34,180 bases of DNA from a virus. The notes beneath the pieces are model-generated. The model made no database searches. It was not told the origin of the DNA and saw only the letters and a program-made list of their open reading frames with translations. This document shows positions 2,479 to 34,180 of this stretch, in pieces. The translations under genes were made by a program, and so were the position numbers. The stretch spans positions 1 to 34,180 of IMG/VR virus record IMGVR_UViG_3300025137_000136; one strand, written 5' to 3'. Position 1 is the stretch's first letter. Every line of letters begins with the position of its first letter.

Positions 2479-2796
2479 ATGGCACATAAAATAAGTGAAG
2501 CAACAGAGGTTAAATTAGATGTTAAAACAATAGCAATTATTGTAGGATTTTCTATTTCTCTAGCGACAACTTATATAACGCTTTCAGCTGCAGTATCTAA
2601 AAATACCGAAGATGTTGTTGCTTTAAAAGAAAATTCTGTAAATCCAATAGAGTTTCAGTACAAAGACGAACTAGTAAGATCAACAGTAAAAAGATTAGAG
2701 GAAAAGCAAGATGTGTTGGGAGATGATATAAGTGAGATAAAAGATCAGCTAGCTAAAATTGACGAAAGACTTTATCAAATAAGCAAAGGTAGATGA
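2479..2796 (+). CDS. Membrane-anchored coiled-coil protein of the lysis block
   Basis: 105 residues. A single hydrophobic segment (about residues 19-40, TIAIIVGFSISLATTYITL) is followed by a charged helical region with heptad character from about 65 to the end (VKRLEEKQDVLGDDISEIKDQL). This is the architecture of an inner-membrane anchor with a coiled coil on one side. It starts 9 bases after the fibre gene and overlaps the next gene by ATGA. Inner-membrane spanins share this shape, so an i-spanin-like role is possible, but I see no family-specific motif and the topology is a guess. Confidence 0.7.
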   Translation: MAHKISEATEVKLDVKTIAIIVGFSISLATTYITLSAAVSKNTEDVVALKENSVNPIEFQYKDELVRSTVKRLEEKQDVLGDDISEIKDQLAKIDERLYQISKGR

Positions 2797-3116
2797 GATC
2801 TGCAATAATTATTTTTTTTATAACATGTTTTAGTTTTGGCCAAACTGATATAGAAATAATACAATTTAGCGCTTCGTTTGTAAAAGATAACGAAGTTTCA
2901 CTAAAAAAATTCAAATATCAGACTAAAACTATTTACATGTCTGAGAACCCAGATAAATTCAAAAAACATAAACTCAAATACATACCTACTATTATATTAT
3001 TATATAATGGAAATGAGTATCACAGAGTAGAATCAGGGATATCATTAAAATTACCCGAGGACACAATCAATCAAATTGAAGATAAAATTGATGAAATAAT
3101 CGAAAGTAAATTTTAA
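2793..3116 (+). CDS. Secreted thioredoxin-fold protein lacking the CxxC site
   Basis: 107 residues. Residues 1-17 (MRSAIIIFFITCFSFGQ) are a signal peptide ending in the FGQ typical of flavobacterial Sec signals. The mature part runs IEIIQFSASF, then ENPDKFKKHKLKYIPTIILLYNGNE. Tyr-Ile-Pro-Thr at 63-66, followed by a strand and NGNE, is the cis-proline loop of thioredoxins. The place where WCxxC would lie reads FSASFVKDNE, with no cysteine, so redox activity is not expected; the only cysteine is in the signal peptide. It is coupled by ATGA to the gene before and sits in the envelope/lysis block. It may be a periplasmic binding or chaperone module. The fold call is moderately sure, the role unknown. 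Confidence 0.65.
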   Translation: MRSAIIIFFITCFSFGQTDIEIIQFSASFVKDNEVSLKKFKYQTKTIYMSENPDKFKKHKLKYIPTIILLYNGNEYHRVESGISLKLPEDTINQIEDKIDEIIESKF

Positions 3117-3123
3117 AGATAAT

Positions 3124-4299
3124 ATGAAACAAATTACAACTATTATATTAGTTCTAGGATTATGCTGGAACTTAAATTCTCAAAACAAAAAAGATAATAT
3201 ATTTAAAAAGTTATTTAAATATAGTACTTTGTATGTCGCTGGCGATATAGATAATCCAAAAGAAAATGTAAAAAATTATTTTGTAAGAACAAATCCTGAT
3301 GGTAATTTGTATGCTCCACCTATAGTTGTGGATGGTACTGATTATTATAATTTCGATTACCGCTACGGCATTGGTATACGCAAACTTGCACGATTTGATT
3401 ATGAAATTAAAAGTAAACATTATTACGATGGCACAGAAAATAACATTGGATTATCCGCAACCAACTCTCCTGTAAACGGGTTGGAATATACTTTTCATTA
3501 TGAAAAAGAAAGATCAAGAGATGAAGTGTTTACTAATCATAGATATTTTTTAAAACACAGCGGTAAACACCATGTTGTAAAATTAGAAAGCAGAAAACAA
3601 GGTAGGGTTGATTTTAATTATAAAGCAGCAGAAATTAAAGCTAAACTTCCAATTGGAAAAAAATTTAGCATTTCAGCCGGAGCCATCTACAGGACTCACA
3701 CTCGCCCCTATGGATACAACCCAGTGGAAATATGGTTAAATGAAACTGACGAAAACGGCTGGCCAGTTAACCCCTGGTACTCTTTAGGTTTTGATTATGG
3801 GTATGATGATATATATTACACTCAGGAAGACGAAAGTGGAAATGAAATATCCGACTGGTACTGGATTAATCCGGAAGGAGAAGTAATTGCTAATACAGAT
3901 TTAGAATTTAGAAATACAGTTTTTGCGGATTTAATGAATAGGTATAATCAAGAAATATGGAATGATCTTGATGCCTTTGGAGTAGTAAGTCCAATTATAA
4001 GTTTTGATGTATACCATTATAAAAGAAATTTTTGGCTACATGCATTCGGATCATACTTACTACCTTATCATAAGTACGTTAAAGGAGATTTAGATTTTAG
4101 CTATTTAAATAGAAACAACTGGGGCTTAGGAGGATTAATTGAAGACGCTGATCTTGAGCAGTGGAAAGACTATCAAGCAGGAATTTCTTTAGGGTGGAAA
4201 TTATCAAAAAGTTTAGGTATATTTGTTGAAACCGAATATACAAAGTTTTGGGATTCTGAAATATATCAATCGTCTATTGGGTTTAACATTAGACTGTAA
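3124..4299 (+). CDS. Predicted outer-membrane beta-barrel protein
   Basis: 391 residues. A signal peptide (residues 1-20, ending LNSQ) is followed by alternating amphipathic segments rich in Tyr, Trp and Phe, such as YYNFDYRYGIGIRK, LEYTFHYEKERS, KFSISAGAIYRTHTRP, AGISLGWKLSKSLGIFVETEY and the final SSIGFNIRL. That pattern and a terminal strand ending in a hydrophobic residue are characteristic of outer-membrane barrels. It does not resemble a TonB receptor or a lipase that I know. It lies between a secreted thioredoxin-fold protein and lysis genes, and overlaps the next gene by one base (TAATG). It could disrupt or mask the outer membrane, or block re-infection; these roles are inference. 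Confidence 0.65.
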   Translation: MKQITTIILVLGLCWNLNSQNKKDNIFKKLFKYSTLYVAGDIDNPKENVKNYFVRTNPDGNLYAPPIVVDGTDYYNFDYRYGIGIRKLARFDYEIKSKHYYDGTENNIGLSATNSPVNGLEYTFHYEKERSRDEVFTNHRYFLKHSGKHHVVKLESRKQGRVDFNYKAAEIKAKLPIGKKFSISAGAIYRTHTRPYGYNPVEIWLNETDENGWPVNPWYSLGFDYGYDDIYYTQEDESGNEISDWYWINPEGEVIANTDLEFRNTVFADLMNRYNQEIWNDLDAFGVVSPIISFDVYHYKRNFWLHAFGSYLLPYHKYVKGDLDFSYLNRNNWGLGGLIEDADLEQWKDYQAGISLGWKLSKSLGIFVETEYTKFWDSEIYQSSIGFNIRL

Positions 4300-4529
4300 T
4301 GAATAAGATTCCTAAAGACAAGTTATTGCACTTTTTTTGGGGAGGTATAAGCGCCTTTCCTCTTATATATATATTCTCTATTTACGGATTTATTTTTTCA
4401 CTAACTTTGTACGCAGCAAAGGAGATTGTTTATGACTGGTATATGAATAAAGGTAATCCTGAATTTATGGATTTTGTATATTCTAGTGTACCAGCAGTAT
4501 TTTATTTAACATTAAAATTAAATTTATGA
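4299..4529 (+). CDS. Small VanZ-like membrane protein
   Basis: 76 residues. It begins MNKIPKDKLLHFFWGG; the KDKLLHF...G pattern, with a later AKEIVYDWYMNKGNPEFMDFVYSS, matches a small phage membrane family that resembles part of VanZ. Two hydrophobic stretches (about 12-38 and 58-74) suggest two membrane helices. The gene overlaps both neighbours (TAATG before, ATGA after), directly ahead of the peptidase, so a holin-like or accessory lysis role is plausible. The family's biochemical function is unknown to me. Confidence 0.6.
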   Translation: MNKIPKDKLLHFFWGGISAFPLIYIFSIYGFIFSLTLYAAKEIVYDWYMNKGNPEFMDFVYSSVPAVFYLTLKLNL

Positions 4530-4987
4530 AAGCAATAAGCGACCACATAACGTACGCAGAGGCAATACATTCAAATACAGCTAAAAGAAAAGGTATTGAC
4601 AACACGCCTAATCCTACTCAAATAGCAGCAATGATAACTGTAGCTGAAATGGTATTTGAACCTTTAAGGAAATGGGCAAATGGTGCTATTAAAGTTAATT
4701 CATTTTTTAGGTCTTCATCTTTAAATGAAGCTATTGGCGGAGTAAGTTCTAGCCAGCACTGTAAAGGTGAGGCAATTGACTTAGACGATGTGTATGGGAA
4801 TAAAAGCAACGCAGAAATGTTTATGTACATAAGAGAAAACTTAAATTTCGATCAATTAATTTGGGAGTTTGGAACAGATATGAATCCAAATTGGATACAT
4901 GTATCATACGTGGATAAAGATCAAAATAGAAATAGATGTTTACGAGCATATAAAGAAGATGGCAAAACAAAATATAAAACTATATGA
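4526..4987 (+). CDS. Peptidase M15 endolysin (zinc D-Ala-D-Ala carboxy/endopeptidase-like)
   Basis: 153 residues, one catalytic domain with no obvious wall-binding domain or signal peptide. The zinc motif SxHxxGxAxD is seen as SQHCKGEAID, giving His78 and Asp85; the third ligand is His125 in WIHVSY, and Glu114 in LIWEFG is in the place of the general base. VNSFFRS at 57-63 is the usual upstream family motif. It should cut the peptide part of peptidoglycan at lysis after passing the inner membrane through a holin. It is coupled by ATGA on both sides to membrane-protein genes, which fits a lysis cassette. Confidence 0.9.
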   Translation: MKAISDHITYAEAIHSNTAKRKGIDNTPNPTQIAAMITVAEMVFEPLRKWANGAIKVNSFFRSSSLNEAIGGVSSSQHCKGEAIDLDDVYGNKSNAEMFMYIRENLNFDQLIWEFGTDMNPNWIHVSYVDKDQNRNRCLRAYKEDGKTKYKTI

Positions 4988-5418
4988 GTAAAAAGAAATC
5001 TTTCAAAGATACAAAGGTTGGCCAATTTCTTACTAACGCAGCCCCAGCCTTACTGGGAAGCATAGGAGATGTTTTGCCTAACCAAGGTGTGCTTGGTGTA
5101 GTAAAAAATTTAATTGAAAAAGACGAAGTTATGCCTGCTAAAGATAAAGAAGAGGCAATGAAACTTTTAGAAATAGATATAATTGAAATGCAAGAAGTGT
5201 CTAAAAGATGGCAAGCCGATATGAGTTCAAGCGGCACTTGGTTAACAAAAAATGTACGACCAATTACATTGTGTTTTTTTTCTTTTTCTTATGTTGTTGG
5301 TTGGTATTGTGGATATGATCTTACTAGTATACAATCAGTGGTTTCAATAATAATTGCTTCATATTTCGGAAGTCGTGGAATTGAAAAAGTAATGGGAAAT
5401 AATAAACACAAACAATAA
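4984..5418 (+). CDS. Holin-like membrane protein (3TM holin family type)
   Basis: 144 residues. An N-terminal helical part is followed by the conserved RWQADMSSSGTWLTKNVRP (about 75-93), then two hydrophobic segments (about 94-110 and 114-130) and a lysine-rich tail. The WLTKNVRP motif just before the membrane segments is typical of the phage holin_3TMs family. It overlaps the endolysin by ATGA and the next small gene by one base. Function as the pore that releases the endolysin is inferred from family and position. Confidence 0.7.
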   Translation: MSKKKSFKDTKVGQFLTNAAPALLGSIGDVLPNQGVLGVVKNLIEKDEVMPAKDKEEAMKLLEIDIIEMQEVSKRWQADMSSSGTWLTKNVRPITLCFFSFSYVVGWYCGYDLTSIQSVVSIIIASYFGSRGIEKVMGNNKHKQ

Positions 5419-5714: not shown

Positions 5715-6050
5715 ATGAAAACAAAAAAAACTATGCTTAGTGCTGTACAAAAAGTCAAAATGGCAATGGGCAAAATGCTACCAAAATTAAGTAAGCCGTC
5801 TTTAAACGCAGGTTTTGAAAAACTTCCCGAATCAGTACAAAATAAAATGATGAAAGTCAAAAAGGCTAAAATGGTAACGGCTACAAAAAAAAAACAAAAT
5901 CCATACCCACCTAACACAGCCGCTCATAAAGCTTTTAATGAAAGAGCAAAAAATTCTAGAAAGGAACTTCAGGCAAATTTAGACAAAATGGCAACAAAAA
6001 AGGGGAGAGAACAAGCAAAAAAGGAAGCAGCAAAAAAGAAAAAAATATAA
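5715..6050 (+). CDS. Lysine-rich protein of unknown function
   Basis: 111 residues with about 30% lysine and almost no acidic clusters; the first 60 residues are also rich in methionine and the C-terminus is a run of KK/AKK. The ATG at 5715 follows an A-rich leader 25 bases after the previous stop. It ends overlapping the next gene by one base. Composition suggests nucleic-acid binding, possibly as an internal DNA-condensing protein, but no domain is recognised. Confidence 0.65.
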   Translation: MKTKKTMLSAVQKVKMAMGKMLPKLSKPSLNAGFEKLPESVQNKMMKVKKAKMVTATKKKQNPYPPNTAAHKAFNERAKNSRKELQANLDKMATKKGREQAKKEAAKKKKI

Positions 6051-6415
6051 TGGCTTTTAACTTTAAAAATATTTATGAGGTTTTCGGACACAACAAACAA
6101 TACTCTAATGGGGATAGAATTGTTGTAGAAAAAAAAATGTCTAAAAATGTTTTAGGTCAAATAAATCCAAACGGTGTTATTGAAATAAATAAAGACGCAA
6201 CACCGGCAAACAAACGTAGAGCTGTAAAGCATGAGCAAGTACATCTTGATCAAATTAGATTAGGGTTGTTACATTTCGATCACAACAACTATCATTATCG
6301 AGAAAGTATTACATCGCCAATACAGCGTATACCGAGTAGTAAAATTAACACCTATGACAGAACACTGCCATGGGAAATACAAGCGCATAATGGGGGAATT
6401 AAAAAATTGGGTTAA
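6050..6415 (+). CDS. Small putative zinc metallopeptidase (HEQVH)
   Basis: 121 residues. KRRAVKHEQVHLDQIR gives a perfect HExxH zinc motif (His61, Glu62, His65). A glutamate in LPWEIQAH (Glu109), 44 residues downstream, is a good third ligand, as in gluzincins. The N-terminal part (GDRIVVEKKMSKNVLGQINPNGVIEINKD) looks like two or three strands. There is no signal peptide, so it would act in the cytoplasm or the particle. Its place among small basic proteins and before fibres gives no clear substrate; head maturation or an anti-host role are both possible. The motif is clear, the activity unproven. Confidence 0.65.
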   Translation: MAFNFKNIYEVFGHNKQYSNGDRIVVEKKMSKNVLGQINPNGVIEINKDATPANKRRAVKHEQVHLDQIRLGLLHFDHNNYHYRESITSPIQRIPSSKINTYDRTLPWEIQAHNGGIKKLG

Positions 6416-6626
6416 ACAAAAATGGGTTCGCATTGGTACTGATGGAAAAATCAAAGGGCCTTGCGGTTCTTCTAAAAATAAAAAGAATCCTGATAGATGC
6501 TTGCCATTAGCTAAAGCAAGAAGATTAAGCAAAAAACAATTAGCGGCAACAGCTAAGAAAAAAAAGACACAAGGCAAAAGCCGTCAATTTGTTTCAAATA
6601 CTAAAGCTGTACGAGCAAAAAAATAA
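6390..6626 (+). CDS. Small basic conserved protein (resembles DUF5872)
   Basis: 78 residues from ATG 6390 (MGELKNWVKQKWVRIG), which overlaps the previous gene by 26 bases; an in-frame ATG at 6354 would overlap by 62 bases and is less likely. The core KWVRIGTDGKIKGPCGSS, then NPDRCLPLAKARRLSKKQ and AATAKKKK, has the two-cysteine layout (PCG...CLP.AKA) I associate with the DUF5872 family found in marine phages and large viruses. The family has no known function. The family name is from memory and should be treated as tentative. Confidence 0.65.
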   Translation: MGELKNWVKQKWVRIGTDGKIKGPCGSSKNKKNPDRCLPLAKARRLSKKQLAATAKKKKTQGKSRQFVSNTKAVRAKK

Positions 6627-6633
6627 ATTAATT

Positions 6634-6924
6634 ATGGCTATTAAAAAAAACATGTCTTGCAATAAAGTAAGACCCTCAACAAGGCCAGGTAAAAAGAAAA
6701 TGGTTAAAGCTTGTGAGGGTGGCAGAGAGAAACTAATTCACTTTGGAGCTAAAGGTTATGGTCATAACTATTCAGCAGCAGCAAGAAAAAGTTTTAGAGC
6801 TAGACATAAGTGTGGTACAGCAAAATCAAAACTAACTGCTAGATACTGGGCATGCAAAAAATTATGGGCAGGTAAAGGTGGAAGCACAAAGTCTTCCCCT
6901 AAAAATAAACAAGGAAAATATTAG
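6634..6924 (+). CDS. Small Cys/Arg-rich conserved phage protein
   Basis: 96 residues from ATG 6634; an upstream in-frame ATG at 6589 lies inside the previous gene and is rejected. The core is EKLIHFGAKGYGH, then ARKSFRARHKCGTAKSKLT and ARYWACKKLW. The SFRARHxC...ARYWxCK signature recurs in many marine phages, where I know of no function. Four cysteines (at MSCNK, KACEG, HKCG and WACK) could bind a metal, giving a small zinc-ribbon-like fold; this is inference. Confidence 0.7.
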   Translation: MAIKKNMSCNKVRPSTRPGKKKMVKACEGGREKLIHFGAKGYGHNYSAAARKSFRARHKCGTAKSKLTARYWACKKLWAGKGGSTKSSPKNKQGKY

Positions 6925-6946: not shown

Positions 6947-7094
6947 AAGACAAATAATATACTATGGCAACAATACCTACAGGACAACAATTTCACACCC
7001 TATCATCTACAGTAGATACTACAGAGAGAGGATCGGCTTTTGCAAATGAACGCAGACAATCATTTACGATGCAAGACATCAAAGATACTATTGG
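6947..7094 (+). repeat. Direct repeat, copy 1 (fibre gene leader and start)
   Basis: This stretch recurs at 8207-8354 with a constant offset of 1260 bases and no gaps. Exact blocks are 6947-6969 (23 bases), 6984-7010 (27 bases) and 7053-7094 (42 bases). It covers the leader and the first 44 codons of the fibre gene. Confidence 0.9.
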
Positions 7095-8217
7095 GGCGGC
7101 TACGAGTATCAATGAATTAAGTGATGCCTCGGCAGGAGGAGGAACTGAAGCTACAGGAACAGTAATAAACTTAGGTACAAAAGCAACATGGTCTGGCGCT
7201 GGAGGATTAGGTTTTCAGGGAGGGATAAGTGTGGTTTTAGGATTTAAAGCTTTAGAAGTATTTAACTCTACAGTAGACTCAGCGAGTGGTAATTTTGGAA
7301 GACATCTTTCTATTGGGTATAAGTCAAACAACTCAATGAATGGATCTGTGCACAGATATAATTCTTTTGCAATTGGAAATTCTGCAGTAGAAAAATGGAA
7401 TCCCTCAACCGGAGTAAATCCAATATATGGAATAGGTAACTTAGCTATGTCAAATACTATAAACGCCACTAATTGCATAGCAATAGGGCCACAAAGTCTA
7501 TCTGAACTAGGAAATGCTTCAGACACCGTTCAGGATCCCGATGCTAATAAAGATAATATATATATCGGTGGGTATACTAGTTGGCTTAGAGGAAAAAATA
7601 ATGTATCTATAGGGTGGTCAGCAGGCCCAACCTTTAGCTCAAATCAAAACACTACACCAGTGGACTCGAATACAATTATAGGTCGCGGAGCTGGGGCCGG
7701 TGGAAATGCAGTGCAAAACATTACATGTTTAGGTGCTAATTCTACTCCTAGTGCTTCTAATGCTACAAATGAAATTACACTTGGTGATACAAGTATTGCA
7801 ACTTTAAGGTGTAATGTTACAACCATAACTAGTTTATCAGATGAAAGAGATAAAAAAGATATAGCGGATTTAGATAAAGGGTTAGATACCGTAATGAATT
7901 TAAAGCCGCGTAAATTTATTTGGAATAATAGGTCAGAGCAAAGAATAAAAGATATTATACCTGCTGAAATCGATCAAGAAGGTGAGATAATTAAAGACAG
8001 TGAAACTATATATGAAGAGATTAGCAGTACAAGAAAAGGCACTAAGGATATAGGTTTTATAGCGCAAGAACTACAAACTGTAGATGATGAATTTATGCAA
8101 TTAGTTTTTGACAAAAACCCTGAAAAACTAGAGGCTAGTTATGGAAGATTAATCCCAGTATTAGTAAAAGCTATACAAGATTTAAAAGCTGAATTAGACA
8201 ACAAACAAGACAAATAA
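6964..8217 (+). CDS. Fibre/tip protein with C-terminal S74 chaperone, copy 1
   Basis: 417 residues. The N-terminal 44 residues (QQFHTLSSTV...FTMQDIKDTIG) are nearly identical to those of the next gene and should be the particle-attachment domain. The middle is a distinct glycine- and serine-rich beta region with recurring SIGYK/AIGN/IIGRG elements. Ser292 and Lys297 in SDERDK form the expected S74 dyad, leaving a 126-residue chaperone that ends in a coiled coil. LVKAIQDLKAEL is the usual ending of such domains. It is likely a self-processing receptor-binding or tip protein. Confidence 0.87.
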   Translation: MATIPTGQQFHTLSSTVDTTERGSAFANERRQSFTMQDIKDTIGAATSINELSDASAGGGTEATGTVINLGTKATWSGAGGLGFQGGISVVLGFKALEVFNSTVDSASGNFGRHLSIGYKSNNSMNGSVHRYNSFAIGNSAVEKWNPSTGVNPIYGIGNLAMSNTINATNCIAIGPQSLSELGNASDTVQDPDANKDNIYIGGYTSWLRGKNNVSIGWSAGPTFSSNQNTTPVDSNTIIGRGAGAGGNAVQNITCLGANSTPSASNATNEITLGDTSIATLRCNVTTITSLSDERDKKDIADLDKGLDTVMNLKPRKFIWNNRSEQRIKDIIPAEIDQEGEIIKDSETIYEEISSTRKGTKDIGFIAQELQTVDDEFMQLVFDKNPEKLEASYGRLIPVLVKAIQDLKAELDNKQDK

Positions 8218-8354
8218 TATACTATGGCATTAATACCACTATTACAACAATTTCACACCCTATCATCTACGGTAAGTACAATTGAAAGGGGTTCTGCTTT
8301 TGCAAATGCAAACAGACAATCATTTACGATGCAAGACATCAAAGATACTATTGG
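8207..8354 (+). repeat. Direct repeat, copy 2 (fibre gene leader and start)
   Basis: Partner of 6947-7094. The left end includes the stop codon of the first fibre gene (at 8215-8217), so the duplication carried its own leader. Confidence 0.9.
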
Positions 8355-9750
8355 TGGAGTTAGCATAGATCCTACGTATACTCCTATACCAGGACAAATA
8401 CCTAGATGGATAGACGCAGATACAATTGGAGGTGGAATAACTCCATCTTTTTCTCCAGGAGGTGTTAGTACAGTTATTAATCGTGCATATACTAATGAAT
8501 TTATTCATCCAAAATTAACGAACTTTGGTTTTCATAGCTGGTCAGGGTGGTGGAAAACAGGTTTTCCAATAGGATCATTGGCCTCAGTACAGGGGATGAA
8601 TCCAGGTTTCTTGAAAAATTTTATAGTATGGGATTCTGCGGTTAGTGATGCTGCAGTAGATTTTACTGGAAGTACTCCTACTAAATTTGTGGGTACCTTA
8701 GCTATTGGAGTTAATTTTGCTAAAGATTGGTTCACTACCAGTGGCACAGCTTTCAACGACTCTGTACTTCTTGGTATGACAGAATCCGGAGATGGGGGTT
8801 TTAGTAACCTAGCAGGAAAGCAAGTCTCACTAAGTGTACTGATTGGTGGAGATATGTTCGGGCAAACGAGTGGGAGTAATTTGCCAAGTCAATTAAATGA
8901 TGTGGTAGTAATTGGTGGTGAGTGTTTTGAAGGAGCAAATTTTAGCAATGGAAATATAAATGGCGGTGTTTATATAGGAAGAGAACAACTAAAGGGTTCA
9001 AATCCTTCCGCAAGCAGTTGCCAAAATAATGTAAGTATTGGTTATAGAGCAATGGGTGGTAAAGTCAACGGAACAGAAAATGTAGCTATAGGTTACTTTT
9101 CTGGATACGATATAAGCAACTCTGTCGTTACAAACTACAATTCATTTTACGGAGTTAAAGCAGGATATGAACATGTTTCAGGAGAATACAATACATTTAT
9201 TGGATATAATTCAGGACCTTCTAATAACGCAGCGTCAACAGGGAACAACAACACTGCAATAGGAAATGGAGCGCAGTTTACATCTGCAAATACTTCTAAT
9301 GAAATTGTTTTAGGTAATTCAAGTGTTACGGCTTTAAAATGTCAGGTTCAAACTATTACAGCCTTGTCTGATGAAAGAGATAAATCTGATATAGTAGATT
9401 TAAACCATGGATTAGATCTTGTAATGAGCTTGAAGCCTAGAAAATTTGTTTGGGATTTAAGAGATGAAGTTGTAATTGAAACAGAAGAAAAAATTACACC
9501 AGGTAAAGATGGCGAAAAAGATGTTACTGAAGTTATTGAAACATTTAAAACAGTAAAACCTTCAACGAGTGGAATTAAAGACGTTGGATTTATAGCACAA
9601 GAACTACAGGGGTTAGATAATGATTTTTTAAGATTAGTAAATTCATCAGACCCTGAAAAACTACAAGCTTCTTACGGAAGATTAATTCCTGTATTAGTAA
9701 AAGCTATACAAGAATTGTCTGCAAAAGTTTCAGCGTTAGAAAACGCATAA
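8224..9750 (+). CDS. Fibre/tip protein with C-terminal S74 chaperone, copy 2
   Basis: 508 residues, paralogue of the previous gene. The first 44 residues and the S74 end (Ser382 and Lys387 in SDERDK; 127-residue chaperone) are shared, while the middle 330 residues differ in length and sequence. Units such as SIGYRAMGG, AIGYFSGYD and FIGYNSGP suggest a beta-helix of SIGY-type turns, like bacterial YadA-type heads. An extra insert (TEEKITPGKDGEKDVTEV) lies inside the chaperone. Shared ends with a divergent centre indicate a mosaic host-recognition protein. The gene follows copy 1 by 6 bases. Confidence 0.87.
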   Translation: MALIPLLQQFHTLSSTVSTIERGSAFANANRQSFTMQDIKDTIGGVSIDPTYTPIPGQIPRWIDADTIGGGITPSFSPGGVSTVINRAYTNEFIHPKLTNFGFHSWSGWWKTGFPIGSLASVQGMNPGFLKNFIVWDSAVSDAAVDFTGSTPTKFVGTLAIGVNFAKDWFTTSGTAFNDSVLLGMTESGDGGFSNLAGKQVSLSVLIGGDMFGQTSGSNLPSQLNDVVVIGGECFEGANFSNGNINGGVYIGREQLKGSNPSASSCQNNVSIGYRAMGGKVNGTENVAIGYFSGYDISNSVVTNYNSFYGVKAGYEHVSGEYNTFIGYNSGPSNNAASTGNNNTAIGNGAQFTSANTSNEIVLGNSSVTALKCQVQTITALSDERDKSDIVDLNHGLDLVMSLKPRKFVWDLRDEVVIETEEKITPGKDGEKDVTEVIETFKTVKPSTSGIKDVGFIAQELQGLDNDFLRLVNSSDPEKLQASYGRLIPVLVKAIQELSAKVSALENA

Positions 9751-30638: not shown

Positions 30639-33600
30639 ATGAATCAAGAAGCACTAAGAGTATCATATGATCAAGCGGTTGAAGAGGGTTACAATGGGGA
30701 TATGTCTGAATTCTACACACTACTTCAAACAAACACTGAAGCTGCAGACTTAGCCTACAACATGGCTAAAGAAGAAGGTTATAAATCAGATCAGCTTAAC
30801 TTCGAAGCATTACTTGGCTTAAAAAAAAAAGAAGAAAATTTTCCAGACTTATTTCCTTCCGAATATCAAAGCTCGAACTTACCTTCGGGTTCAAAATTAA
30901 ATATTGATCCAGAACAGGTAGATAATCTTTTTAAAAAAAGAGAAAAAACAATACCTCGTATTCAAAGATTAGACCCTACTGTTCCTGAGATGGGACTAAC
31001 TGAAGTGCAAGAAGATTTGATTAAACCCGAAGAGGAACGAAAGGGTAGAGTAAATCAATCAAAAGTAACAGAAAGATTATTAGAAAAAACTTCATTAGAC
31101 GATAAAGTAAAGTCTATTGTAAAATCTGCACCATCTGAAACAAACAAAGGTATAGAGTTTAACCAAAACAAACCTTATGTTATAAATCAAAATTTAATAA
31201 TAGGTGAAATAATTACTGAAATGCCTGAGTTAGATAATATAACAGGTGAAGATGAATTAAATACATTTCTAGAAAACAACCCTGATGTTATTGAAAAATT
31301 TGAACAAAAAGTTAAAGAAAAATTAGAAGTTTATGTAGATAATACTTCTGATGATTCTATTTATAAGTATAAATCTTTTGATCCAACTCAATCTACAGAT
31401 GCGCAAACTATGACGGGCGCAAAAACAAATAAATTATCAAAAAAAGTTGATGCTGACCCTGCTAAACTTGCAATAGTTGAGAGCTTGTATAGCGGCTTAA
31501 GTGGATTTAATTTAAACGAACTTACAAATTACTTTGACGAAGAAGTTACCACAGAAGCTGGGCTAGATAAAAGAAATAGGATTATTCAGTCGGTTCAAGA
31601 TGGTAATTTAGATTTAATAGATAAATATAGTAACCAGGATTTTGATGATGAAGATGATGCAGACAGAGGTGCTTTAGCTTTAGACGTACAGAAATCACAA
31701 GCTCTAGGATTATACATTCAAGATAAAATAAAAACATTAGATGACAGAGAGGCTTTGTTACAATTAAATCCAGAGAAAAACAAAGATGCTTTAAAAAAAC
31801 TTAAACAAAACAGAAAAGAATTAATATTAAATTTTGGTGAATACAATCGTCAAAATTTACCTTTTTTAAATAATCATTTATACAAAAAAAAGGTTAGGTT
31901 AGCTGAAGAATATACATCAGGAGACATGGGGTTATATAACCCTGGAGATATTATACATGGTGGATATGAAGGAGGTAGAGAAATATTAGAAGGAGGTTAC
32001 GGAGCTACTGTAGATTTAGGTTCTACTGTGTTAGATTTCGTAGGTTTAGATTCTATGTCAGAAGATTTAAGGATACATAGAAATTTAAATAATTTATTAT
32101 GGACAGATCCTACATCATTTGGATATGCTGAAGGAAAAGCAGTAATCCATGATGGAAAAAAATATATTGTAACACCAGAGGGTAAAATAATAGACGAAGA
32201 AAGAGAAGTGGATGTTGCTTTTTTTGGAGAACAAGCTGGTATTGATTTAAATGCAATAAAAAATAAAGCTAAACTATCTGACACAACAGAGTCAACAGTT
32301 AGTACGTATGGTACTTATCAAATGGGTGCCAATGTAACAGGGAATCTTGCGGTTCAACTTGTAGGAATGAAGGGTACAGGAGCGCTTTTAAAGGGGGGTG
32401 GTAAACTTACTTCAGCTATAGGGATGGGTAAATTAACTAAAGAAGCTACCATGAGAACTAACGCAATGTTAAGTACTGGAGCTGTAGTTTATTCATCTAC
32501 TTACAATCAAGTATTAGAAGAAGGTAGAGAGCAGGGATTACCCGATAATTTATCTCATAAATATGCTAATGAAGTTGCTACAACAACAGGTTTGGTAGGA
32601 GCTATAACTGCAGTTACAATTTCTCCAAACATAGGTGGTCAACAATTATTTGCTAGAACATCACCAAAAGAAATAGCTCAGTATTTAATTAAAAACAAAA
32701 CTACTAACAATATCCCTGGTAAAGTATTGGATTTTTTAAAAGGAGGAGCTGTTGAAGGTACCTTCGAAGCAGTTCAAGAAAACTTAGAATTACTTAGTGA
32801 GCAATATGCAAAAAATAAAATAAACGAAAATGTAGGTAAAGAATTATTTAAACCTGTTTTTACTAAGACCAGTGTAATGAATAACTCTATTGCTGCGTTT
32901 GCATCCGCAGGCCTACTAGGTGGAGCAGGAAGTATTAACACTTCACGAGTTACTTTTTTTAACCGCTTAGGTTCTAATCAAGAATTGTTTCAAAAATACA
33001 TGAAGATGTATGTTGAGCAAGGATTAATTGATCAGATTGGCGCAGACAAAATTGTAAATGAAGTTAAGAATTATCATCAGTATAAAAATAAATTACCTGA
33101 AAATCTAAGAAATTCATCATTGTCTATTAAATTAACTAATTTATTAGCAGAAAAAACTAGACTTCAAGATTTATTAAAGACACAAGATGAGGTTTTTAGT
33201 GAAGATACTAACACTAGAATAGCTGCAATCGATAAAGAAATCAAAAGAATTTCTAACGAAGCAGGCAAGAAAAAAGTAACTCCATCGGCTGATATAAAAG
33301 ATGAAAGAGAAATAAGTAATCAAGAAGCTATTGATGCTATAACTAAAGAAAACCAAGGGAGAGAAGAGAGAGGTGAAAACCTAATAGGCTTTTCCGAGCA
33401 AGACATTGCAAACAAAAAACAAGAAATTTTAAAACAAGAACAAGATGCCAGTACGAAGCCGAGCGCAGTGGCGCAAACTAGCCAAGACGAATCCACAACT
33501 GTTGGGGAAGTGGCTGAAGGAGTACCCAGTGAGGTTCAGCGACCTTCCGGAACGAGTGACAGCGACACCGACAGTGACGTCGACACGACAACGCAGGAGG

Positions 33601-34180
33601 AGGTAATACCTGAAGATGAAGTTGTTGCTGAGGTAGAAGCTATAACAGAAGAACAAGCAGAACAAGAATTAGAAGGTCTTCTTAACCAAACAGAAAACAA
33701 AAATAAAAACGTCGTTAATGTTGGAACAGAAGGAAGAAATAAAAGTATATCTAGAAAAGCAAGTTCACAAACCAGGGAAGAAGGATTCAACACTAAAACA
33801 CCTCAAGGAAAAAGAAGGTTTAATAAAATAAAAAGCGAAATAACAAATGCCTATAACAAAAAATTAAGAACTTTAAAGAGGGCGGCTAATCTATTAGGTA
33901 AAGTAATTCCTGATACAAAAATTATTTTTGCAGAAACAAGAAGTGCTTATGAAAATTTAAGAGGAAAAACCAATTCAGTTGGGGCTTTTAGAATTGATAC
34001 ACGAGATGGGTCAACCGCTATAATTATTGATGTAACAAATTTAGATGGTGATAAAGGAATAGAAACATTAGTACATGAATTGTTTCATGCGGTTTTATAT
34101 AAAAGGTTTGGTCGTGATAAAGCTAAGGTGAGAAGAATTACTGATAAAATGGTAAAAGAATTACAAAAAACTTTACAAAA
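30639..34180 (+). CDS. Giant virion protein with HELFH zincin domain, 5' part
   Basis: Open from ATG 30639 to the window edge, at least 1180 codons, no stop. The N-terminus has two related helical units (YDQAVEEGYNGDMSEFYTLL and AYNMAKEEGYKSDQLNFEALL), seen in Bacteroidetes phage giant proteins. Around 555-790 are glycine-rich, membrane-active-looking stretches (NLAVQLVGMKGTGALLKGGG and AAFASAGLLGGAGS), as in ejection proteins. Residues 937-988 are an unusual GC-rich Ser/Thr/Asp linker. Near the end, ETLVHELFHAVLYKRFG carries HExxH (His1146, Glu1147, His1150), a zinc protease signature; the third ligand would lie beyond the window. It is probably a polyvalent protein injected with DNA. Gene continuation is certain, enzymatic activity inferred. 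Confidence 0.75.
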   Translation, partial: MNQEALRVSYDQAVEEGYNGDMSEFYTLLQTNTEAADLAYNMAKEEGYKSDQLNFEALLGLKKKEENFPDLFPSEYQSSNLPSGSKLNIDPEQVDNLFKKREKTIPRIQRLDPTVPEMGLTEVQEDLIKPEEERKGRVNQSKVTERLLEKTSLDDKVKSIVKSAPSETNKGIEFNQNKPYVINQNLIIGEIITEMPELDNITGEDELNTFLENNPDVIEKFEQKVKEKLEVYVDNTSDDSIYKYKSFDPTQSTDAQTMTGAKTNKLSKKVDADPAKLAIVESLYSGLSGFNLNELTNYFDEEVTTEAGLDKRNRIIQSVQDGNLDLIDKYSNQDFDDEDDADRGALALDVQKSQALGLYIQDKIKTLDDREALLQLNPEKNKDALKKLKQNRKELILNFGEYNRQNLPFLNNHLYKKKVRLAEEYTSGDMGLYNPGDIIHGGYEGGREILEGGYGATVDLGSTVLDFVGLDSMSEDLRIHRNLNNLLWTDPTSFGYAEGKAVIHDGKKYIVTPEGKIIDEEREVDVAFFGEQAGIDLNAIKNKAKLSDTTESTVSTYGTYQMGANVTGNLAVQLVGMKGTGALLKGGGKLTSAIGMGKLTKEATMRTNAMLSTGAVVYSSTYNQVLEEGREQGLPDNLSHKYANEVATTTGLVGAITAVTISPNIGGQQLFARTSPKEIAQYLIKNKTTNNIPGKVLDFLKGGAVEGTFEAVQENLELLSEQYAKNKINENVGKELFKPVFTKTSVMNNSIAAFASAGLLGGAGSINTSRVTFFNRLGSNQELFQKYMKMYVEQGLIDQIGADKIVNEVKNYHQYKNKLPENLRNSSLSIKLTNLLAEKTRLQDLLKTQDEVFSEDTNTRIAAIDKEIKRISNEAGKKKVTPSADIKDEREISNQEAIDAITKENQGREERGENLIGFSEQDIANKKQEILKQEQDASTKPSAVAQTSQDESTTVGEVAEGVPSEVQRPSGTSDSDTDSDVDTTTQEEVIPEDEVVAEVEAITEEQAEQELEGLLNQTENKNKNVVNVGTEGRNKSISRKASSQTREEGFNTKTPQGKRRFNKIKSEITNAYNKKLRTLKRAANLLGKVIPDTKIIFAETRSAYENLRGKTNSVGAFRIDTRDGSTAIIIDVTNLDGDKGIETLVHELFHAVLYKRFGRDKAKVRRITDKMVKELQKTLQ
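33447..33602 (+). other. GC-rich island inside the giant virion gene
   Basis: By hand count about 59% of bases 33447-33600 are G or C, against about one third in the surroundings. It encodes a linker (residues 937-988) rich in Ser, Thr, Asp, Glu and Val, including SDSDTDSDVD, using codons such as GCG, ACG, GAC and GTG that are rare elsewhere in this gene. The frame stays open, so it is part of the protein. Confidence 0.75.

Follow-up and report, generated by a model that had tools for sequence, protein, structure and literature searches.

How might a phage open the outer membrane of its host when its lysis genes come without a classical spanin pair? This question is raised by six tightly packed genes, here termed g1 to g6, on the plus strand of the window, a 34,180-nucleotide stretch of an IMG/VR virus record that covers a fragment of a marine phage genome, 34 kb where ~60 kb are expected. 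The hosts of these phages are most likely Bacteroidota. The original prediction of six coupled open reading frames was confirmed, with intergenic gaps from g1 to g6 of −4, +7, −1, −4, and −4 nt. Compared with a related locus, L003, all six showed dN/dS values of 0.06–0.27 and their homologues are intact, indicating that they are genes rather than chance open reading frames.

We searched for canonical spanins in the window and in five near-complete relatives of 60–65 kb, with lipoprotein criteria sensitive enough to pick up 48 of 52 known family members. No sense-strand open reading frame with a lipobox was found in any of them; all lipobox matches lay antisense to longer open reading frames. 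Neither an outer-membrane lipoprotein of the o-spanin type nor a u-spanin, a single protein with a lipobox and a C-terminal transmembrane (TM) segment, was therefore detected in the window or these relatives, and, judged from sequence, canonical o- and u-spanins are probably absent. This supports the earlier remark that no recognizable classical Rz/Rz1 pair is seen. Such a lack has precedent, as one survey recognized no spanin in about 13% of its phages, among them the Bacteroidota phages B124-14 of Bacteroides and P2559S/Y of Croceibacter (Kongari et al. 2018, PMC6139136). In that survey, an outer-membrane protein (OMP) was suggested as a possible o-spanin. Those phages likewise infect Gram-negative hosts and lack a lipoprotein spanin, but no OMP-based unit was identified there, whereas a conserved trio is present here.

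The trio consists of g1, g2, and g3, and the envelope layer originally proposed for each is supported. The first gene, g1 (2479..2796), encodes a 105-aa protein in which a short N-terminal tail precedes a single TM segment (approximately residues 18–38) and a coiled coil forms the C-terminal part. Exactly one TM segment was found in all 225 distinct g1 homologues. This arrangement fits an i-spanin (inner membrane, N-in and C-out, periplasmic coiled coil), the N-in part being weakly favored since the residues ahead of the TM segment carry a smaller negative net charge (−0.6) than those behind it (−2.4). The coiled coil begins with E[FY]xxKD[EQK][LMI][IV]R followed by heptads, and its V..I...L..I...L..I spacing is conserved in the alignment. 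The periplasmic part is short (~65 residues, ≤10 nm if fully helical), so a chain bridging the envelope would need g2 and g3 for reach. We dropped XhlA, in which the TM segment sits at the C-terminus, as a relative of g1 because the match was weak (E = 0.09).

Overlapping g1 by four nucleotides, g2 (2793..3116) encodes a 107-aa protein carrying a Bacteroidota-type signal peptide with likely cleavage before Q17. Its AlphaFold2 model (pLDDT 81.5) displays the element order b-a-b-a-b-b-a, the top 50 Foldseek matches of this model are all thioredoxin-fold entries or fusions to such (probability 1.0), and 20 of 37 family members matched Pfam Thioredoxin, all of which point to a thioredoxin fold. 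The family was too diverse for a single whole-family profile, and group-specific and g1 patterns were used instead. While g2 shares with thioredoxin the fold and the cis-proline, invariant as P65, it is secreted and has lost the active-site CXXC in all 223 distinct members, where the position mostly reads NxxN; the seven CxxC occurrences in the family all fall inside signal peptides. Given this loss of the catalytic cysteines, we rejected a redox or disulfide-exchange role. A lipobox was likewise found in none of the 223 sequences.

The 391-aa product of g3 (3124..4299) has no Pfam or PHROG match and stands outside known sequence families. Several features nevertheless identify it as a predicted outer-membrane β-barrel: a signal peptide, mostly antiparallel strands, a C-terminal β-signal (..GFNIRL), and a barrel fold, although the model reached only a moderate pLDDT of 70.7. 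In the PDB, Foldseek matched it to barrel proteins of the outer membrane (NanC, E = 1.7e-6), and the fold search returned a single viral homologue, A0A516LKJ4 (E = 2.5e-25, 26% identity).

Downstream of g4 lie the 153-aa endolysin g5 (4526..4987) and the 144-aa holin g6 (4984..5418), in line with the earlier labels of M15 peptidase and holin-like protein. g5 matched Pfam Peptidase_M15_3 (PF08291, E = 3.4e-15) and the endolysin family PHROG 894 (E = 2.8e-25); its zinc-peptidase motifs SSQHCKGEAIDLD and WIHVS are intact and it has no signal peptide, as in an M15 endolysin. g6, with two C-terminal hydrophobic stretches, matched the holin family PHROG 3427 (E = 1.3e-8), and tblastn linked it to proteins annotated as holins in Nonlabens phages P12024S/L and in Vibrio phages. 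The gene order is that of a two-component spanin locus, in that g1 and g2 overlap and, in the window, have g5 and g6 no more than 2 kb downstream.

We then compared about 290 related loci. The idea of one six-gene system did not survive this comparison, as lysin, holin, and g4 come and go, but the grouping of g1, g2, and g3 did. In the g1-anchored sample, g2 lay directly downstream of g1 in 82 of 92 copies, 44 of them at an ATGA overlap; in the g2-anchored sample, g1 was directly upstream in all 78 non-edge copies and g3 lay within 5 kb in 67 of 75. Where g3 occurs on bacterial genome contigs, g1-g2 were nearby at nine of ten loci, the tenth stopping at a contig end. The core is thus g1-g2, nearly always adjacent, plus g3, while lysin, holin, g4, and a lipoprotein family that we call LIPO are exchangeable. 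On a 113-leaf g1+g2 tree g3 changed state once, g6 eight times, and the lipoprotein ten times. The three core genes also diversify together more than any of them does with the lysin (distance covariation r = 0.73 for g1-g2, 0.65 for g1-g3, and 0.61 for g2-g3, versus 0.29–0.48 for each with the lysin). In L003, dS rises from 0.33–0.52 in g1–g4 to 1.4–1.6 in g5–g6, a recombination step between g4 and g5 indicating that the trio is exchanged independently of lysin and holin.

The single g3 change separates a clade of 13 that carries g1-g2 without g3, five of them with a lipoprotein instead; the outer-membrane partner is therefore not universal. Because the apparent tendency of g3 and LIPO to replace each other (Fisher p = 0.003) reflects this one evolutionary event, we discarded it as evidence. 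Frequent separation of the trio from lysis genes had been named as an outcome that would speak against the original proposal, and it applies in part. Of the 112 g1-g2 loci flanked by 4 kb on each side, 56 had an M15 or Amidase_2 lysin within 4 kb and the other 56 had no recognized lysin in that range; conversely, g2 was found within 4 kb in 37 of 45 M15-anchored loci. The pair or trio also stands beside such lysins in differently built phages, some with tail terminator and neck genes.

On this basis, we read g1-g2-g3 as a three-protein, spanin-like unit that bridges the Gram-negative envelope and most likely carries out the outer-membrane step of lysis, as spanins do elsewhere; we give this reading slightly less than an even chance. 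g2, the thioredoxin fold in the periplasm, would serve as an adaptor without catalytic function that connects the g1 coiled coil with g3, and g3, an outer-membrane protein, would stand in for the lipoprotein o-spanin. Intact peptidoglycan would keep the unit inactive. After the M15 endolysin g5 has been let out by holin g6 and has cleaved the wall, g1 and g3 would be drawn to one another, and the outer membrane would be disrupted or would fuse with the inner one. Several observations count against this reading: the clade lacking g3, the roughly half of sampled pairs that have no recognized lysin within 4 kb, the short periplasmic part of g1, the recombination step in L003, the incompleteness of the window, and the tendency of g1 PHROG matches toward "holin".

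The last of these leads to the first alternative, which we consider unlikely: g1 would be a single-TM holin with a large periplasmic domain, like T4 T, g2 a periplasmic regulator, like T4 RI, and g3 a separate outer-membrane factor, so that the pair times lysis rather than breaking the outer membrane. The topology of g1 fits a class III-type holin, and a 1:1 coupled membrane protein and secreted partner fits T/RI. Seven of 31 g1 family members matched PHROG 1296 (holin; best 7e-5) and three matched 10340 (holin/anti-holin), which agrees, but these matches are weak, as is the one match to an Rz-like spanin (7686), and could reflect TM and coiled-coil composition. Among 23 complete neighborhoods with a lysin but no g6, 13 contain no other predicted-TM open reading frame within 4 kb, leaving g1 as the sole local holin candidate; yet holins may escape so crude a TM scan, and their genes can be located elsewhere. 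Moreover, g1-g2 are equally present alongside g6 (40 loci), which would mean two holins, and co-inheritance with an outer-membrane barrel is left unexplained. T4 is not known to have such a co-inherited barrel, nor is RI known to adopt a thioredoxin fold.

The trio could instead serve envelope remodelling or superinfection exclusion, with g3 altering or masking a surface receptor, g1-g2 anchoring it, and the trio lying in the late region by chance and being dispensable for lysis. Phage-encoded outer-membrane proteins serving exclusion are known, the trio in the window is flanked by fibre-like genes, and in one subgroup the M15 gene lies 3.4–7.6 kb from the trio or is not seen. However, the tail-fibre neighbor is not conserved, since the upstream genes may be fibres, a 2,500-aa protein, or tail terminator and neck genes while the lysin recurs, and exclusion genes are usually optional, in conflict with the single g3 change; we judge this explanation improbable as well. 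Least credible, and quite improbable, is that g1 is an i-spanin that really pairs with a lipoprotein, LIPO or a different one, whose gene lies outside the fragment, while g2 and g3 have other tasks: LIPO does sit inside the module in LIPO-anchored loci, often with a 32-nt overlap on g1, but it is missing from 101 of 112 complete g1-g2 neighborhoods, changes repeatedly on the tree, and the five near-complete relatives encode no sense-strand lipoprotein of any kind.

Under the spanin-like reading, the unit resembles lambda Rz/Rz1 and T4 PseT.3/PseT.2, in which the gene for an inner-membrane protein with an N-terminal TM segment and a periplasmic coiled coil overlaps that of an exported partner beside endolysin and holin. 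Unlike in those pairs, the exported partner is a predicted soluble thioredoxin fold without a lipobox, and the outer-membrane element would be a barrel rather than a lipoprotein. The presumed task is also that of unimolecular spanins such as T1 gp11. To our knowledge, the trio would be the first lysis unit to combine an outer-membrane barrel with a thioredoxin-fold adaptor. With a somewhat less than even chance, coiled coil, redox-dead adaptor, and phage barrel form a three-component "spanin", a new outer-membrane disruption machine widespread among marine Bacteroidota phages that have not been cultured and not seen in those that have. Seven trio queries (two g1, two g2, and three g3) gave no related match by tblastn among 50,697 phage records, the sole match being a thioredoxin of Streptomyces phage BRock. 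The trio offers a concrete, conserved, and testable candidate for outer-membrane opening by spanin-less phages in an abundant phage group.

Within the same host group, a "unimolecular spanin" has been annotated in the Flavobacteriia phages Nekkels and Ingeline (PMC8776804). The lysis region of Nonlabens phage P12024L has a g6-type holin, an M15 peptidase, and, directly upstream, gp13 with a short TM and coiled coil, but neither g2 nor g3; homology of gp13 to g1 was rejected (hhalign probability 0.6%). LIPO, of which the window holds no copy, is rich in Tyr, Asn, and Pro and carries a lipobox (for example, L006:9874-10299). The remaining gene of the block, g4 (4299..4529), encodes a 76-aa accessory membrane protein. 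Its proposed VanZ-like nature found no support, with no Pfam match at E ≤ 1, and a YfiM identity was likewise not established, the profile match to a DUF2279/YfiM-like family present in related loci being weak (30% probability). g4 occurs in 25 of the compared loci, all near relatives, and carries the motif D-K-L-L-H-F (general form D-K-x-x-H-F).

The six genes at 2479–5418 on the plus strand (g1–g6) were confirmed; they are coupled and evolve under purifying selection. The original prediction read them as one envelope block, possibly an unusual lysis or envelope-remodelling system, and its protein families held for g1 (2479–2796, inner-membrane coiled coil), g2 (2793–3116, secreted thioredoxin fold), g3 (3124–4299, outer-membrane barrel), g5 (4526–4987, M15 peptidase endolysin) and g6 (4984–5418, holin); g4 (4299–4529, 76-aa membrane protein), labelled VanZ-like, gave no VanZ match.

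Sequence and structure models together give the trio g1–g3 its predicted anatomy. The 105-aa g1 has one transmembrane segment (TM) and a conserved E-[FY]-x-x-K-D-[EQK]-[LMI]-[IV]-R motif, then a 3-4 heptad pattern up to the C-terminus; exactly one TM is predicted in all 225 of 225 distinct homologues, and charge difference weakly favours an N-in orientation. The 107-aa g2 carries a signal peptide and by itself matches Pfam Thioredoxin only marginally, a family matched by 20/37 of its relatives (the two checked both lie above the curated cut-off). Its AlphaFold model (pLDDT 81.5) has its elements in thioredoxin order, and the best 50 PDB matches of the model all show the thioredoxin fold, as entries of their own or in fusions. 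None of 223 distinct g2 sequences has CXXC at the active site; among the 204 in which the motif could be located, Asn occupies the first cysteine position in 135 and the second in 164. The cis-Pro proline is invariant. g2 is a redox-dead secreted thioredoxin fold, and its role would be that of an adaptor, not an oxidoreductase. g3 (391 aa, with a signal peptide) matched nothing in Pfam or PHROG; the PDB matches of its moderate AlphaFold model (70.7) are outer-membrane barrel proteins, NanC first, and BFVD holds one clear homologue (A0A516LKJ4; E 2.5e-25, 26% identity). At nine loci (L060:5742–5969 and relatives), g3 adjoins a secreted 76-aa protein whose C-terminus is highly basic (KKKRKKRKKRKNEK) and which could act in a disruptin-like manner.

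Relatives were collected with four independent anchors, g3 (L002–L018), M15 (L019–L098), g1 (L101–L179) and a g2 subgroup (L190–L269), plus loci anchored on the lipoprotein family LIPO (L270–L291) and bacterial genome contigs (L180–L189). In the g1-anchored sample, g2 lies directly downstream of 82/92 g1 copies (44 with a 4-nt overlap); in the g2-anchored sample, g1 lies directly upstream of all 78 of 78 non-edge g2 copies, with g3 ≤5 kb away in 67/75. M15-anchored loci had g2 within 4 kb in 37 of 45 complete cases. Among 112 non-redundant g1–g2 pairs flanked by 4 kb on each side, g3 accompanied 99, M15 55, g6 40, LIPO 11, g4 seven and the Amidase_2 family two. State changes on the g1+g2 tree (113 rows) numbered one for g3, eight for g6 and ten for LIPO, and pairwise distances co-vary more strongly among g1, g2 and g3 (r 0.61–0.73) than with the lysin (r 0.29–0.48). 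Against L003, dS is 0.33–0.52 for g1–g4 and 1.4–1.6 for g5–g6; this jump from about 0.4 to about 1.5 marks a recombination boundary between g4 and g5 (4526–4529), and the lysin/holin pair was therefore swapped there as one unit. From the anchor counts, tree changes, distance correlations and dS step, we conclude that the natural unit is g1–g2(–g3), the lysis genes being its commonest but exchangeable company. The trio occurs beside M15 or Amidase_2 lysins; its carriers include podovirus-like contigs as well as phages that have tail terminator and neck genes. Because a recognised lysin is missing within 4 kb of about half the sampled pairs, the refuting observation named in the original prediction, its first three genes often lying away from the lysis genes, is partly borne out. 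Some modules carry two complete divergent g1–g2 pairs, one on each side of g3 (L068, L129, L132, L134, L168, L170), and others two g1 copies with one g2 (L131, L136, L145, L166).

The best supported reading, which we hold tentatively, is that the trio forms a spanin-like envelope-spanning unit. The inner-membrane coiled coil g1 would be joined to the periplasmic adaptor g2 and then to the barrel g3, and wall degradation would release this bridge; the three proteins would touch one another and disrupt membranes. The trio is co-inherited, and canonical o- or u-spanins are probably absent. Checking each start in all six frames for a lipobox gave no candidate on the sense strand of the window or of five trio-carrying 60–65 kb IMG/VR relatives (G001, G002, G003, G005, G006); every match in these sequences is antisense to a longer ORF, and the lipobox criteria recovered 48/52 LIPO members. 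No lipobox occurs in the 223 distinct g2 sequences. Kongari et al. applied the same logic in classifying phages as lacking o- and u-spanins, and they suggested that an OMP could serve as o-spanin (PMC6139136). The trio would work like a spanin. It falls outside the spanin families as these are defined, since their lipoprotein feature was looked for and not found.

The main rival reading, that g1 is instead a single-TM holin with g2 as its periplasmic regulator, appears unlikely. In its favour, g1 is the sole TM protein seen near the lysin in 13/23 complete loci with a lysin but without g6. The PHROG matches of the g1 family are weak and mixed (31 members: holin 1296 in seven, 1009 of unknown function in ten, holin/anti-holin 10340 in three, Rz-like spanin 7686 in one). 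Envelope remodelling or exclusion by the trio, for which the pairs lacking a nearby recognised lysin speak, is about as unlikely. Least credible is that g1 works together with a lipoprotein, LIPO or another, whose gene lies outside the window. LIPO, with its lipobox, conserved DTIQLDVNSLRPRVYQNIY stretch and Tyr/Asn/Pro-rich tail (for example L006:9874–10299, L029:4254–4670 and L270–L291), is absent from the window; it lies inside the trio module in many relatives (59 loci matched), often overlapping the g1 start by 32 nt, and is an o-spanin candidate in phages that carry it. The literature searched contained no description of a g1–g2–g3 unit, and among 50,697 phage records tblastn with all three, divergent members included, detected none related to them.

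The window is an entire linear IMG/VR record (34,180 bp) with one ORF open at its 3′ end (30639–34178; 1,180 aa, with a HELFHA zinc-peptidase-like motif near the visible end). In podovirus MW202828, whose genome is circular and 60.9 kb long, the terminase is 70% identical to the window's; in Flavobacterium elemoviruses, of about 60 kb, the figure is 44%. Because these relatives have genomes of ~60 kb, roughly half of the genome is absent from the record. The host most likely belongs to the Bacteroidota: signal peptides here terminate in ..FSQ/..FAQ, endings typical of that group; the nearest cultured phages infect Flavobacteriia, and MAG contigs of Bacteroidetes, Flavobacteriales and Sphingobacteriales carry the trio. 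Woesearchaeota, Alphaproteobacteria, Maricaulis and Nitrosopelagicus also stand in MAG titles, probably through faulty binning.

Three genes for fibre-like proteins lie around the lysis block: one has an S74 chaperone domain (439–2469), and the other two have C-termini that look alike by eye (6964–8217 and 8224–9750). Directly 3′ of the block lies a cluster of small, very Lys/Arg-rich proteins (5715–6924), one matching PHROG 23735 (unknown function). The cultured Nonlabens phage P12024L has a related holin and M15 peptidase, but in place of the trio encodes gp13, an unrelated short protein with a TM and coiled coil (L293:3214–3480), and could serve as a laboratory comparison. Upstream of its M15 gene, MW202828 encodes a 207-aa protein (L099:15506–16129) that begins with a TM and has a beta-rich, barrel-like stretch at the C-terminal end; it may condense the trio's design into a single protein.
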